Below, in pieces: positions 6,701 to 14,113 of a stretch of 64,000 nucleotides of DNA. Within the stretch, counting starts at the first letter, position 1; each line of letters starts with the position of its first letter. The DNA is taken from contig NZ_NIDE01000002.1 of assembly GCF_002197845.1 (NCBI RefSeq), positions 682,001 to 746,000 of the forward strand, written 5' to 3'. The DNA is from Fimbriiglobus ruber (GTDB taxonomy: Bacteria; Planctomycetota; Planctomycetia; Gemmatales; Gemmataceae). The position numbers and the translations under genes were made by a program. The notes beneath the pieces are model-generated. The model did not search any database. It had not been told where the DNA came from and was given only the letters and a program-made list of their open reading frames with translations.

Positions 6701-7378
6701 TCACTCGTCAGAGAGTCCTCCATCTGCCGGAGGCAGCTCGCCTTGCCACAGTTTGCGAATCAGTTTCATCCTACGTTCCACGGTACGGGGAGTCCGATTG
6801 ATCTTCCTGGCAATTTCTTCCGTGGTGTAGCCTTCCAACCGTAACGACGCGACCTCCCGACACTCCATCGGTAACATGGCCAGCAGCCGTTCGATCTCTT
6901 CAGGAATCTTGGTTATCACGTCCGGCGGGGATGTGTAAGGATCGATTGGGTCGATCGCCAGTCCCCCATCTACGCCGGGGGAATCCAGTGACAATTCTCG
7001 TCGTATATCCCGACGTTGTCGTTGCTCTCGGCGTGCGGTCGAGCAGACTTTGCGCACGGCAATCGTCACGACGAGATTCAAGAACTGATCCCGATTGTTC
7101 AGGTCGAACCCACCCGCTTCCAGTCGCTTGCAGAAACTCAGGAGGACGTCCTGAAGGATGTCTTCCGGGGCGATCCGCTGTTGTAAGCGCTGCTGCATCC
7201 GGCCGTCGATCAGGGCAAGCAATTCCGTGGTGTAGCGCTGAATGAGTTCCGACGCGGCGCGATTGCGGACTTTCGGATCTGTGTCACGAAGCAGCAACAA
7301 CAGGTCGGTAACCGAACCCTTGTCAGGCACAAGCGTCTCCTTTGCAAATTGCTTGTTGGATTGAGCCGGCGTTTCCAT
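6701..7378 (-). CDS. ECF-type RNA polymerase sigma factor
   Basis: ECF sigma factors direct RNA polymerase to small regulons. This 225-aa protein has a sigma region 2 (ASELIQRYTTELLALIDGRMQQ... through EDILQDVLLSF, residues about 40-95). It also has a region 4 with a helix-turn-helix (MECREVASLRLEGYTTEEIARKINRTPRTVERRMK, about 170-210). Region 3 is absent, as in the ECF class. I chose METPAQS as the start because the upstream open frame runs through the inverted repeat and the divergent promoter region; the RBS is weak. It is transcribed divergently from a Ser/Thr kinase gene, an arrangement known for planctomycete kinase-linked ECF groups, where the kinase is thought to control the sigma factor. 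No anti-sigma gene is visible. Confidence 0.88.
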   Translation of the reverse strand: METPAQSNKQFAKETLVPDKGSVTDLLLLLRDTDPKVRNRAASELIQRYTTELLALIDGRMQQRLQQRIAPEDILQDVLLSFCKRLEAGGFDLNNRDQFLNLVVTIAVRKVCSTARREQRQRRDIRRELSLDSPGVDGGLAIDPIDPYTSPPDVITKIPEEIERLLAMLPMECREVASLRLEGYTTEEIARKINRTPRTVERRMKLIRKLWQGELPPADGGLSDE

Positions 7379-7403
7379 TATACTCGGCAGGAATTTAGGA
7401 ATC

Positions 7404-7447
7404 CGTGTCGGGCAACAAACCACTACGGCGATTCCAAAGGGGGAATT
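7404..7447 (-). repeat. Right arm of the inverted repeat, in the sigma/kinase promoter region
   Basis: This is the inverted partner of the arm at 6553-6594. It occupies most of the intergenic space between the divergent sigma-factor and kinase genes, so it overlaps the likely promoters of both. Confidence 0.75.
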
Positions 7448-7496
7448 GTCTTCGGCAGTGTGTGCCCAATCGCGGCTGTCGTTCGTCGAGGAAGTG

Positions 7497-12400: not shown

Positions 12401-13259
12401 AGTTAACTACAACGCCGACGTAACGACACCTGCTCCAAAGGCTGGTGCCAACAGCACTCCTCTCCTGAAACCGGGATCGAAACTCGGCTGGAGTGCTCTC
12501 ACGAATACCGAAGGTGAGATGAACGGTGTAGTTAAAGGCGCTGTGAGTAAGCAGCTACCGGTCAAGCGGCTCGACGGTGACAAGGCGACCTCGGCAGCGG
12601 TGCTCTCGGAGCTTCCGAAGGCGAAGGTGGCGCACTTCGCAACCCACGGGTTTTTCGCCGACACATCGTTCCGTTCGGTGTTCCAACTCGACGAGGATGA
12701 CTACAAGCGGTCCAGTCGTGGTGAGCGGATTGGCAAGGCGATCAATAGTCCGCTGGTGATGACTGGCCTGGTGTTTGCCGGCGCGAACAATCCCAGGACG
12801 CTCGGCCGTGGGATCGTCACCGGGGAAGCGCTCATCGACCTAGATCTGTCCGGCTTGGAGTTGGCGGTTCTCAGCGCGTGCGAAACGGGTCTGGGTGACT
12901 TGGGCGATGTGGCCGGTGGCGAGGGGGTATTCGGGCTACAAAGAGCATTCCATTATGCCGGCGCGCAAAACGTCGTGGTGAGTCTGTGGCCGGTGCCCGA
13001 CGAGTCCACCGCAGCCCTGATGAACCTGTTCTATCGCAACTTGTGGGAGAAGGAACTGTCCCCGTTGGAGTCGTTGCGGCAGGCCCAACTAGAGATCTAC
13101 AGGAACCCAGGGAAAATCCCCGAGTTGGCGAAGAGGTTCCGGGGTAATTTCGAAGAAGTCCCACTCAAGAGCGGCGGATTGGAGATCAAGCCTCAGAAAG
13201 ACGGTAAGGCCCACCCGGTTCTTTGGGCCGCCTTCGTCCTCTCAGGATTAGGACGATGA
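9435..13259 (+). CDS. Exported TPR-CHAT protein (caspase-like protease)
   Basis: The product is 1274 aa. It starts with a signal peptide (MPMNRLMSFVMCALLCTLVVVPATA), so it probably acts outside the cytoplasm. About 15 tetratricopeptide repeats of 43 residues (consensus RLADAEPLLKDAL..RRLFKDKDHPDVATSLNNLGTLY) cover residues about 60-700. After a linker with coiled-coil character comes a C-terminal CHAT domain. Its catalytic His is in VAHFATHGFF (about residue 1070), its Cys in LSACETGLG (about 1149), and SLWPVPDEST follows. CHAT domains are cysteine proteases of the caspase/separase clan and often act in stress or defence pathways after signal-dependent activation. It directly follows the kinase gene (3-bp gap). 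Two or more TPR units are almost identical at DNA level (about 10190-10513), a sign of recent repeat expansion. Confidence 0.88.
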   Translation: MPMNRLMSFVMCALLCTLVVVPATADDPPKKLTPEERKELQVKVLSARIAVLVEYQQGKLSEATRASENAVELERRLYNKAEFPDGHVNLAVSLNTLGFLCHTQGRTAEAEPLLKDALDMSRRLFKNKDHQSVTMSLNNLGWLYHTQGRLIDAEPLLKDALEMSRRLSKEKDTPNVAASLNNLGMLYRDQGRLMDAESLLNDALEMRKRLSLDKDHADVATSMNNLAALYRTQDRLADAEPLLKDALRMRRGLFKDKDHPDVATSLNNLGTLYQDQGRLADVEPLLKDALRMRRRLFKDKDHPDVATSLNNLGTLYQDQGRLADVEPLLKDALRMRRRLFKDKDHPDVATSLNNLGTLYRAQGRLADAEPLLKDALRMRRELSKDKNYPDMVTSLSNLGMLYRDQGRLTDAESLLDNALETTRRLFKNKDHRSLATRLSNLGMLYRDQGRLADAEPLLKEALETTRRLFKNKDHPDMVRELNNLAALCQDQGRLADAEPLLKEAIDMSRRLFKDMDHQTVTTSLNNLGSLYYVQGRTVEAEPLLKDALEMTRRLFKNRDHTDMASSLNNLGMLYRDQGRLTDAEPLLKDALGMRRRLFKDKDHPDVARELNNLGLLYNAQGQLTDAEPLLKDALAMTRRLFKDKDHPSLVINLNNLAGLHQLQGRLADAEPLLKDALKLNRHLTRNFAKQKPEGDTLTMLASRQHTRDAFLSNEMAHEANPASVYDEEWFEKGAVSRIYELRQQQTRATTNPEAAKLLADLITARRRRAELLLAPFWTDPATREQREADIQKQEKLIEELTRDLRPLLPVIARADELAEALPTALQKVLSADAVVVDFIRFVHVEWDKDIRGPKGQKETPRYLAFIVTKDRVAWVKLGTAVDVKRTVDTWRKAIATGKDIPATLPAQLRELVWEKVRKELPTGTKTVYICPDADLCKIPFGALPGDKPGTILLEDFAVATIPHAPFLLDKLLPQDPVKNSSTEALVVGAVNYNADVTTPAPKAGANSTPLLKPGSKLGWSALTNTEGEMNGVVKGAVSKQLPVKRLDGDKATSAAVLSELPKAKVAHFATHGFFADTSFRSVFQLDEDDYKRSSRGERIGKAINSPLVMTGLVFAGANNPRTLGRGIVTGEALIDLDLSGLELAVLSACETGLGDLGDVAGGEGVFGLQRAFHYAGAQNVVVSLWPVPDESTAALMNLFYRNLWEKELSPLESLRQAQLEIYRNPGKIPELAKRFRGNFEEVPLKSGGLEIKPQKDGKAHPVLWAAFVLSGLGR

Positions 13260-13330
13260 GCTAGTATAAGTAAGATAGTATACAAATTATAGTATCTTTG
13301 TCTGGGATTTCGATTCCATCTTGCTCGACA

Positions 13331-14113
13331 TCACGGCCTACGTGGTTGAGATTGCTTCCCTTGCTCAGTCGGTTTCGGGGGCTGGCCTTTGCCTTCAACC
13401 GACGTATTTGTGATATTTTCTAGAACCCCTTGCAGGCCGACCAGCTTCGATTTTACCTTACCAGCGTTTTCGTTTTTGGGGTGTTTTTTGACTTCTTCGT
13501 CAAATGCTTTGACCGCCTCTTTTACTTTTTCGAGAACGGAATCTAGTTTTGCATCCAGCTTGTTGCCCAAGATATTTGAATAATATTCATCAAGATCTTT
13601 CTTTGCAAAAAAAATGCAATCATATGCTTTGCTGGCATATAGATCTTTTCTTGGATAGAATAGTTTCATTTCTTCCTGGATATCAACGAATTTATCCTGC
13701 AATTGTTTCACTGCTTGCAGTTTTACCCTTTGGACTTCCATCACCTTGTGGTCATGTTTCACGGACTCGATGAGTTTACCGCTATCCTTATCATTTACGG
13801 CTTTCAGGAAATTGGCGAACTCGTTGATACCCATTTCCTTCGTAGAAACATAGAATTTTCCCTGGCGGCCAGCCTTTTCAAGCGGTCCGAATTCGCCCAG
13901 CTTAAAATCCTTTTCCATTCTGTGTACAGCGCCTTCCACATGCTTCGGATCCGTTTGATAACTCTGCACAGAAACTTGAATTTTTCCCCTGGATGGGATG
14001 ATAGAGAGGATGATGCCGTCGGGTAACTTGGCGGAATTATCTTCAAAGAATTTTTCTAATGCTCTGTGGCTGGTTTCAAAATCCCCACTGGCATTGACTT
14101 GTATGGGTTCCAT
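13331..14113 (-). CDS. AT-rich hypothetical protein, 260 aa
   Basis: The gene is convergent with the TPR-CHAT gene and begins behind GGAAG. The product is Lys/Glu-rich. Residues 1-90 look like a mixed alpha/beta region (GDFETSHRALEKFFEDNSAK, LSIIPSRGKIQVSVQSY). Residues 120-235 are helical and probably coiled-coil (KLQAVKQLQDKFVDIQEEMK, LDSVLEKVKEAVKAFDEEVKK). The tail is Pro/Gln/Lys-rich. No signal peptide is visible. Its base composition is far lower in GC than its neighbours, suggesting foreign origin. I do not recognise a family. Its position beside a caspase-like protease gene makes a partner or substrate role possible, but that is a guess. Confidence 0.7.
   Translation of the reverse strand: MEPIQVNASGDFETSHRALEKFFEDNSAKLPDGIILSIIPSRGKIQVSVQSYQTDPKHVEGAVHRMEKDFKLGEFGPLEKAGRQGKFYVSTKEMGINEFANFLKAVNDKDSGKLIESVKHDHKVMEVQRVKLQAVKQLQDKFVDIQEEMKLFYPRKDLYASKAYDCIFFAKKDLDEYYSNILGNKLDAKLDSVLEKVKEAVKAFDEEVKKHPKNENAGKVKSKLVGLQGVLENITNTSVEGKGQPPKPTEQGKQSQPRRP

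Follow-up and report, generated by a model that had tools for sequence, protein, structure and literature searches.

An ECF sigma factor, a membrane Ser/Thr kinase, a predicted exported TPR-CHAT protease, and a 260-aa protein without a signal peptide (P0004) are encoded by four genes that form one module in the window, i.e. the whole 64,000-nucleotide stretch of Fimbriiglobus ruber DNA that was analysed. The initial annotation had proposed this set and a check of its neighbourhood conservation. All four homologues co-occur in a genome of another genus (G066), where the sigma factor gene is divergent from the kinase and TPR-CHAT genes and the P0004 homologue is convergent at the far end. The G066 locus keeps the gene order and orientation of the window and adds a gene for a C14 caspase (PADLOC caspase-model match, 8.4e-19). 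Identities between the two loci are 57% for the sigma factor, 46% over 466 aa for the kinase, 32% for the TPR-CHAT protein, and 35% over 268 aa for P0004. As the identical order of the same set recurs in another genus, we rejected a chance neighbourhood. The kinase type of the window is present in 2 of 95 family genomes and the exact set is rare; scans of genome contigs with the kinase N-terminus and P0004 (strict peptide patterns) and of viral contigs with P0004 found nothing. The kinase had no plasmid match at E<=1e-30, and P0004 had none in plasmids or phages.

Features of the four genes and their surroundings

The sigma factor gene (Pfam Sigma70_ECF, E=8.3e-21) lies on the minus strand at 6701..7330. 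Its start is more likely the GTG at 7330 than that of the longest ORF used in the initial annotation (6701-7510), because this is where its G066 homologue begins and both genomes have a TATAAT ~45-47 nt upstream of that start (counted by hand). The best ECF-type match is a planctomycete-type model, below that model's cut-off. A 42-nt inverted repeat (90%), absent from the initial annotation, brackets this gene and may represent the ends of a passenger element, an invertible segment, or duplicated operators. Its left arm (6553..6594) abuts the end of the right-hand copy of a tandem insertion sequence (IS) pair, and its right arm (7404..7445) constitutes the kinase leader, with GTGTCGGGC and CGGCGATTCC boxes and the ribosome-site-like stretch AAGGGGGAA. 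No comparable inverted repeat surrounds the G066 sigma factor gene, and no homology to the repeat was found to the left of the IS pair. The GTGTCGGGC and CGGCGATTCC boxes also precede the G066 kinase gene, and in ~2.2 Mb of loci, copies included, both are exact only at the window locus (twice) and before that gene. Since their spacers differ (12 nt in the window, 22 nt in G066), we dropped the reading as a shared promoter; judged by sequence, the boxes are a conserved leader motif.

The kinase gene (7497..9431, plus strand) starts either at ATG 7497 or at TTG 7446. It encodes a kinase domain (~7857-8597; Pfam Pkinase, E=7e-40) with the catalytic loop HQD at residue 255 (counted from TTG 7446), a hydrophobic helix near residue 410 (TM, ~8673-8735), and a DUF4384-like region (~8922-9155). 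Thus, the membrane location and HQD loop previously assigned to this protein stand, but its DUF4384 label is only sub-threshold in the window (E=0.008, 16.6 bits vs. a cut-off of 27). The predicted fold of the C-terminus was of no use (pLDDT 32). The sequence indicates a cytosolic kinase domain and a C-terminal DUF4384-type domain outside the inner membrane. In the window's genome, 139 stretches match the kinase query.

The TPR-CHAT gene (9435..13259, plus strand) encodes a signal peptide of the Sec type (called visually and from hydrophobicity), a TPR array of 129-nt repeats (9732-11374), and a CHAT domain (~12153-13247; PF12770, E=1.6e-54, 185.8 bits vs. a curated cut-off of 24). As initially annotated, the His-Cys dyad is intact (H1071/C1149, at 12645-12647 and 12879-12881), placing the protein among the CHAT proteases, and the signal peptide indicates a position outside the inner membrane. 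Signal-like starts were found in just 9 of 21 kinase-linked and 21 of 48 other long CHAT ORFs, whose starts are uncertain, so export is not established as general for CHATs; the dyad, called by simple motifs, is present in 17/21 and 30/48, respectively.

P0004 (13331..14113, minus strand) is encoded by the AT-rich convergent gene of the initial annotation, with 43% GC vs. 57-61% in the other three module genes. It has no Pfam family above cut-off. Its AF2 model, built on the single sequence (pLDDT 62.9), gave no usable fold and had no Foldseek match in the PDB at E<=0.001, and the top ones were mostly helical bundles. A CARF reading (PADLOC, 2.2e-5) was dropped because the G066 homologue does not share it, and a match in G101 (E=0.0085) was dropped because it overlies a 1383-aa kinase/TPR frame.

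The module is flanked by genes for a T4SS coupling protein (685..2604, minus strand; Pfam scan) and ParB, the two tandem IS4/5-type copies to its left (4638..6552, plus strand), an ISAZ013-type transposase, FitA-like, PIN, and TacA genes, and a tyrosine recombinase to its right (16596..17576, plus strand; Pfam scan), consistent with the previous placement on mobile DNA. G066 has a distant tyrosine recombinase on the same side (28% over 173 aa). Rfam had no match anywhere in the window. Together with its patchy occurrence, this mobile setting suggests that the module serves in conflict or stress. The more specific defence role considered in the initial annotation has no direct support. The PADLOC kinase matches are generic, since PD-T4-6, the model matched by the window kinase, is also matched at E<=1e-20 by each of the 18 kinases used for comparison, and the CARF match of P0004 is not common to its homologue. 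The TPR protein matches a TPR model and the sigma factor weakly matches a CARF model (2.3e-4), and the module matched no specific PADLOC anti-phage system with two or more components.

Kinases and sigma factors near CHAT genes

The link between kinase and CHAT genes recurs above control among relatives, 33 of 79 of which yielded 79 CHAT matches. A Ser/Thr kinase lies within 1 kb of 23/79 CHAT matches vs. 6/134 control genes (p=7.6e-7), and of 14/46 of those for which 3 kb or more was retrieved on each side; for 56/79 CHATs no kinase was found within 1 kb. Gene calls in this survey were longest-ORF picks and ad hoc HMMs, and all 79 CHAT rows were counted, including at least three loci (L036, L107, and L113) with the ORF pick at the CHAT match on the other strand. 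The control genes came from round-number positions in 35 stretches of 8 genomes. The evidence linking sigma factors to CHATs is less strong. Taken by itself, ECF proximity shows hardly any enrichment, with 10/79 CHATs vs. 8/134 control genes within 2 kb (p=0.08) and 12/79 vs. 9/134 within 3 kb (p=0.04); all seven CHAT-near ECF calls tested by Pfam had sigma-70-type matches. A kinase and an ECF sigma factor both occur within 3 kb of 7/79 CHATs and of 0/134 control genes. The window and G066 are two of these seven cases.

The kinase genes within 1.3 kb of a CHAT (n = 24) nearly always share its strand: 16 precede the CHAT and 6 follow it in the same orientation, 1 is on the opposite strand, and 1 is fused. 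Among 22 CHAT-linked kinases (without L118, L123 (two pieces), and L125, and with L057 and L053 added), 20 have a TM after the kinase domain. DUF4384 is found at E<=0.1 in 15/22 of them vs. at most 2/18 other kinases, which comprise 7 from control stretches and 11 retrieved with other regions; a few kb separate some of these 11 from a CHAT (L099, 2.9 kb; L105, 3.3 kb). A single 1952-aa frame in L125 fuses the kinase, TM, DUF4384 (E=2.6e-17), TPR, and CHAT parts; it is a single instance, from a draft genome.

Phylogenetically, the HQD kinases of the window, L025, L109, and L105 form one clade (support 98/94), and each is located no more than 3.4 kb from a CHAT. The sigma factors of the window, G066, and a C8 caspase/TPR-CHAT cluster of the window's own genome also form one clade (support 99/85). 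Overall, CHAT-near sigma factors and CHAT-near kinases are scattered in their respective trees, with 10 changes each. ECF, kinase, and CHAT genes occur together in other planctomycete families (L109 and L053), but such trios are less frequent and their sigma factors come from scattered parts of the tree.

Possible modes of action

We consider the chances about even that the receptor kinase, the ECF sigma factor, and the exported caspase-like protease act as one signalling unit. The exported DUF4384 and TPR parts would sense an envelope signal, and the CHAT protease might trim, or be held by, the exported domain of the kinase. The released kinase could then phosphorylate the sigma factor or a cytosolic partner, and the sigma factor would raise transcription of the kinase-protease operon. 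A periplasmic region seems to restrain autophosphorylation in PknS, according to the available part of one report (PMC13147305). In its full form, with an exported TPR-CHAT protease (at some loci with a C14 caspase) that acts as sensor or executor and either cleaves or restrains DUF4384, a kinase that controls the ECF sigma factor, and all of this on one mobile operon, such a protease-gated receptor kinase is a tentative and rather unlikely proposal.

It is possible, if still somewhat improbable, that the locus is an ordinary pair of an ECF sigma factor and a Ser/Thr kinase (ECF-STK), in which the kinase activates the sigma factor and the TPR-CHAT protein is merely a co-regulated output and not part of the switch. 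The sigma-induced exported protease would then target predators, envelopes under infection, or its own cell. The sporadic occurrence and mobile flanks fit such effector cargo, and the accessible portions of published work list planctomycete ECF-STK groups (ECF59, 61, 62, and 217 have planctomycete members) as predicted to be controlled by phosphorylation. However, the kinase-CHAT fusion argues for a protease that partners the kinase itself, and so does kinase-CHAT adjacency, for which an ECF gene was often not found nearby.

Far less probable is a mechanism analogous to Craspase, with CHAT cleaving P0004 as a cytosolic sigma inhibitor and freeing the ECF sigma factor, as for Csx29, Csx30, and CASP-sigma. 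The same three players are present (TPR-CHAT, an ECF sigma factor, and a small protein), and G066 retains the P0004 homologue where its protease genes end, but the kinase gene belongs to the set, the CHAT profile had no PDB match (E<=0.01; Csx29 entries in that PDB copy are assumed), and P0004 had one match at chance level (E=0.65; Csx30 entries likewise assumed). Furthermore, the TPR-CHAT protein has a signal peptide and neither P0004 nor its homologue does, so that an exported protease is unlikely to act on P0004. This topology disfavours the cleavage of P0004 by CHAT suggested in the initial annotation; P0004 would rather be a candidate regulator.

Equally improbable is the mere crowding of genes that travel jointly on a mobile island without joint function: IS elements, recombinase, and toxin-antitoxin genes surround the locus and ECF proximity is weakly enriched, but the four genes keep their order and strands in another genus at 32-57% identity, the window's tandem IS pair has no DNA match at the G066 locus, and a kinase-CHAT fusion exists.

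The kinase-CHAT pairing, backed by the counts against control and by the natural fusion, offers a concrete hypothesis for the function of planctomycete receptor kinases, with the exported domain of the kinase itself as a candidate CHAT substrate. If true, the proposed protease-gated kinase would carry the protease-sigma logic of type III-E CRISPR over to a system that is built around a kinase and operates outside the membrane, and represent a bacterial relay of protease, kinase, and transcription that was assembled repeatedly in planctomycetes and once compressed into a single protein (L125).

Comparison with known systems

The accessible parts of the literature already describe ECF-kinase pairs (in planctomycetes as predictions), ECF54-CHAT neighbourhoods, loci with caspase, ECF, and TPR genes, and the Csx29-Csx30-CASP-sigma system. 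The closest likeness is to ECF-STK pairs (EcfP-PknT and EcfK-PknS; ECF43, 59, 61, 62, 217, and 283), in which an ECF gene adjoins that of a membrane kinase whose C-terminal part is exported. The sigma factor gene adjoins the kinase gene in the window and in G066, and, as in these pairs, no anti-sigma gene was recognised among the module-locus genes scanned. In contrast to ECF43, in which the acidic DAED of region 2.2 is replaced by an STTA-like phosphorylatable motif, the window sigma factor retains an acidic motif (APED, position by eye), so a charge supply of the EcfP type would not be required. The G066 sigma factor lacks 4 residues directly after this motif.

ECF54 loci, with CHAT, subtilase, or carboxypeptidase neighbours and a proposed proteolytic control, likewise combine an ECF sigma factor with a nearby CHAT protein; the example in the consulted section of a review is Geodermatophilus. 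Unlike these loci, the module of the window has a central kinase. Geodermatophilus is an actinobacterium.

Type III-E CRISPR loci (Csx29, Csx30, and CASP-sigma) also combine an ECF sigma factor with a TPR-CHAT protease and a third protein, but the CHAT protein of the window is predicted to be exported and a kinase is present. No cas protein was found among ten Pfam-scanned proteins (nine window neighbours and one G066 recombinase). EACC2-caspase loci, which contain an ECF sigma factor and a DUF1822 TPR protein and are read as conflict systems in the available text of Kaur et al. 2021 (PMC8195603), resemble the module in joining a caspase-fold protease, a TPR protein, and an ECF sigma factor; the scanned proteins had no Pfam match to EACC2 or TRADD-N, with Pfam coverage of both models unconfirmed. 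The module differs from them in having a receptor kinase instead, and CHAT rather than, or besides, C14. With such pairs and related loci already in print, the novelty of the set is narrower than claimed in the initial annotation; what sets the locus apart from the ECF-STK pairs is the exported TPR-CHAT protease (in G066 together with the C14 caspase) that is built into it.

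A four-gene set shared by two genera

The 12.36-Mb genome of Fimbriiglobus ruber encodes on contig C2 the four genes described in the initial annotation, namely a divergent ECF sigma factor (window 6701..7330, minus strand, GTG start proposed), a membrane Ser/Thr kinase (7497..9431), a TPR-CHAT protease (9435..13259) and the convergent 260-aa protein P0004 (13331..14113, minus strand). Pfam searches identified Sigma70_ECF in the sigma factor (8.3e-21) and Pkinase in the kinase (7e-40). The latter carries the HQD motif and, C-terminal to its kinase domain, a hydrophobic helix around residue 410; its DUF4384 match is sub-threshold (E=0.008). 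The TPR-CHAT protein combines CHAT (1.6e-54, Pfam) with a long TPR array, retains the reported His-Cys dyad (H1071 and C1149), and has a predicted Sec-type N-terminus, consistent with the signal peptide assigned to it. Its array (window 9732-11374, ~12.7 units of 129 nt) contains some neighbouring 52-nt stretches that are identical, which suggests recent tandem duplication; the array in G066, a genome of another genus, is of similar size with 126-nt units. P0004 has no Pfam family above the cut-off, neither signal peptide nor membrane helix judging by hydrophobicity, and is indeed AT-rich (43% GC vs 57-61% in the other three genes). A weak CARF match of P0004 (PADLOC), missing in its homologue, was rejected.

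All four genes co-occur in the same order and orientation at locus L025 of G066, with identities to the window proteins of 57% (ECF sigma), 46% over 466 aa (kinase), 32% over 1217 aa (TPR-CHAT) and 35% over 268 aa (P0004 homologue, matched at 1.4e-34). Between the TPR-CHAT gene and the P0004 homologue, this locus additionally encodes a C14 caspase whose N-terminus has a hydrophobic stretch. The G066 sigma (L025:17208-17798) has four residues fewer in region 2.2 than the window sigma and may thus be altered or inactive. Among 198 relatives, P0004 matched in three genomes at E<=0.01 (own, G066 and G101), the weak G101 match being judged spurious. With a profile built from the kinase N-terminus, matches came from 2/95 family genomes at E<=1e-8 (own, G066) and, at E<=1e-7, from 2/392 genomes of the phylum (own and, weakly, G050); the P0004 profile matched 1/392 (own), a sample evidently without G066, since that genome is absent among the matches despite matching both profiles by construction. 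The full kinase matched 2/59 relatives at E<=1e-60, the own genome and G047; in the latter, the distance from the kinase to a CHAT gene is 3.9 kb. As so few genomes match these searches, the exact four-gene set is sporadic.

The sigma and kinase genes share a short divergent region. In both the window and G066, TATAAT lies ~45-47 nt upstream of the proposed GTG start of the sigma gene, and the boxes GTGTCGGGC and CGGCG(A/G)TTCC precede the kinase with differing spacers. A 42-nt inverted repeat (90%; window 6553-6594 and 7404-7445) brackets the sigma gene, its right arm being the kinase leader and its left arm lying past the sigma stop, abutting an IS end; no comparable repeat occurs at the G066 sigma. 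The suggested location on mobile DNA is supported by flanks with a T4SS coupling protein, ParB, tandem IS copies, a transposase and a tyrosine recombinase; FitA-like, PIN and TacA genes are also present. Past the tyrosine recombinase in both loci lies a 244-nt stretch (window 18736-18979, L025:4685-4928; 77% identical), one frame of which reads as a ~80-aa peptide, 'MGQK.KNVE.VTDYAD.RHFLRLHRD'.

Kinase–CHAT linkage across relatives

PF12770 (E<=1e-25) yielded 79 matches in 33/79 relatives, around which genes were called with ad hoc HMMs on the fetched surroundings. A kinase lay within 1 kb of 23/79 CHAT matches vs 6/134 control genes (p=7.6e-7), and 18/33 genomes contain a pair of this kind; among matches flanked on each side by 3 kb or more of sequence, the figure is 14/46. 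All p-values of this survey are indicative only, because CHAT genes are clustered by genome and short contigs are common. Within 1.3 kb of a CHAT there are 24 kinases, of which 23 (a fused one included) share the strand of the CHAT and 16 lie upstream. A hydrophobic helix follows the kinase domain in 20/22 CHAT-linked kinases, and 15/22 match DUF4384 at E<=0.1, compared with at most 2/18 other kinases, for which DUF4384 was not among the 25 families listed. Three C14 proteins encoded at such loci (P0008, L033 and L053) also have weak sub-threshold DUF4384 matches; P0010 and L061 have none. Signal-like starts occur in only 9/21 kinase-linked and 21/48 other long CHAT ORFs, so these data do not show export to be general.

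The only kinase–CHAT frame among the 79 matches is a single 1952-aa open frame (L125:3986-9844, minus strand) comprising a kinase (163-416), a helix near 462, DUF4384 (536-613; 63.1 bits, cut-off 27), TPRs and a CHAT domain (1647-1949) that keeps the His and Cys motifs. With a single membrane helix, DUF4384, TPRs and CHAT would lie on one side and the kinase domain opposite, a predicted topology that fits the signal peptide on the separate TPR-CHAT protein in the window.

Sigma factors near CHAT genes

ECF–CHAT proximity alone is weak, with an ECF gene within 2 kb of 10/79 CHAT matches vs 8/134 controls (p=0.08) and within 3 kb of 12/79 vs 9/134 (p=0.04). A kinase and an ECF gene both lie within 3 kb of 7/79 matches, from six genomes including the window and G066, vs 0/134 controls (p=0.0008), and within 5 kb of 10/79 vs 2/134.

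Near-copies of the window's tandem IS pair interrupt a related cluster on contig C8 of the same genome (L026, G000:C8:303000-322900), in which an ECF sigma stands with a C14 caspase and pieces of TPR-CHAT. The C-terminal part of one piece is 61% identical to the G066 TPR-CHAT, and the sigmas of L026, the window and G066 form one clade (support 99/85). Single-strand arrangements from other families are ECF–kinase–CHAT with an HQD kinase (L109) and CHAT–C14–ECF–kinase (L053). In G094, a C14 caspase lies amid three CHAT-matching genes (L033:4927-19533). Since CHAT-near kinases and sigmas occupy several scattered tree positions, this combination of genes probably came together at least twice.

Possible mode of action and known systems

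The module is real and conserved, with good evidence for a kinase–protease partnership and moderate evidence for the sigma factor as its output. Beyond the observed gene linkage and orientation, the domain make-up, the intact CHAT dyad and the fusion, the exported DUF4384 domain of the receptor kinase may read an envelope signal together with the exported TPR-CHAT protein; proteolysis or release would change kinase activity, and phosphorylation of the sigma factor or P0004 could switch the operon. A possible parallel for an exported domain restraining a kinase is PknS, whose truncated form without the periplasmic part is phosphorylated unstimulated, although truncation does not restore function (PMC13147305). 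EcfP-type activation relies on a missing acidic 2.2 motif, whereas the window sigma reads APED, and is therefore not directly applicable; STK-linked ECF groups other than ECF43 keep this motif (PMC8999054, section 3.4). No direct evidence was found for the proposed defence role; the PADLOC kinase matches are generic, the same PD-T4-6 model also matching 18/18 comparison kinases (E<=1e-20).

The kinase–CHAT–ECF set was initially not recognised as described, and no description was found in open-access titles and abstract starts, nor a CHAT protein in the accessible portions of an ECF review (PMC8103513) and a planctomycete kinase paper (PMC11032199). Related pairings are published, however: ECF54 has CHAT neighbours with proposed proteolytic control, and STK-linked ECF groups include planctomycete members (both PMC8999054); the CASP-sigma inhibitor Csx30 is cut by Csx29 (PMC10028731); an ECF sigma accompanies a TPR protein at EACC2–caspase loci (PMC8195603); and conflict systems are covered in PMC7159879 and PMC10907252. 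We therefore regard the module as a variant within the ECF–STK kind rather than a new category.
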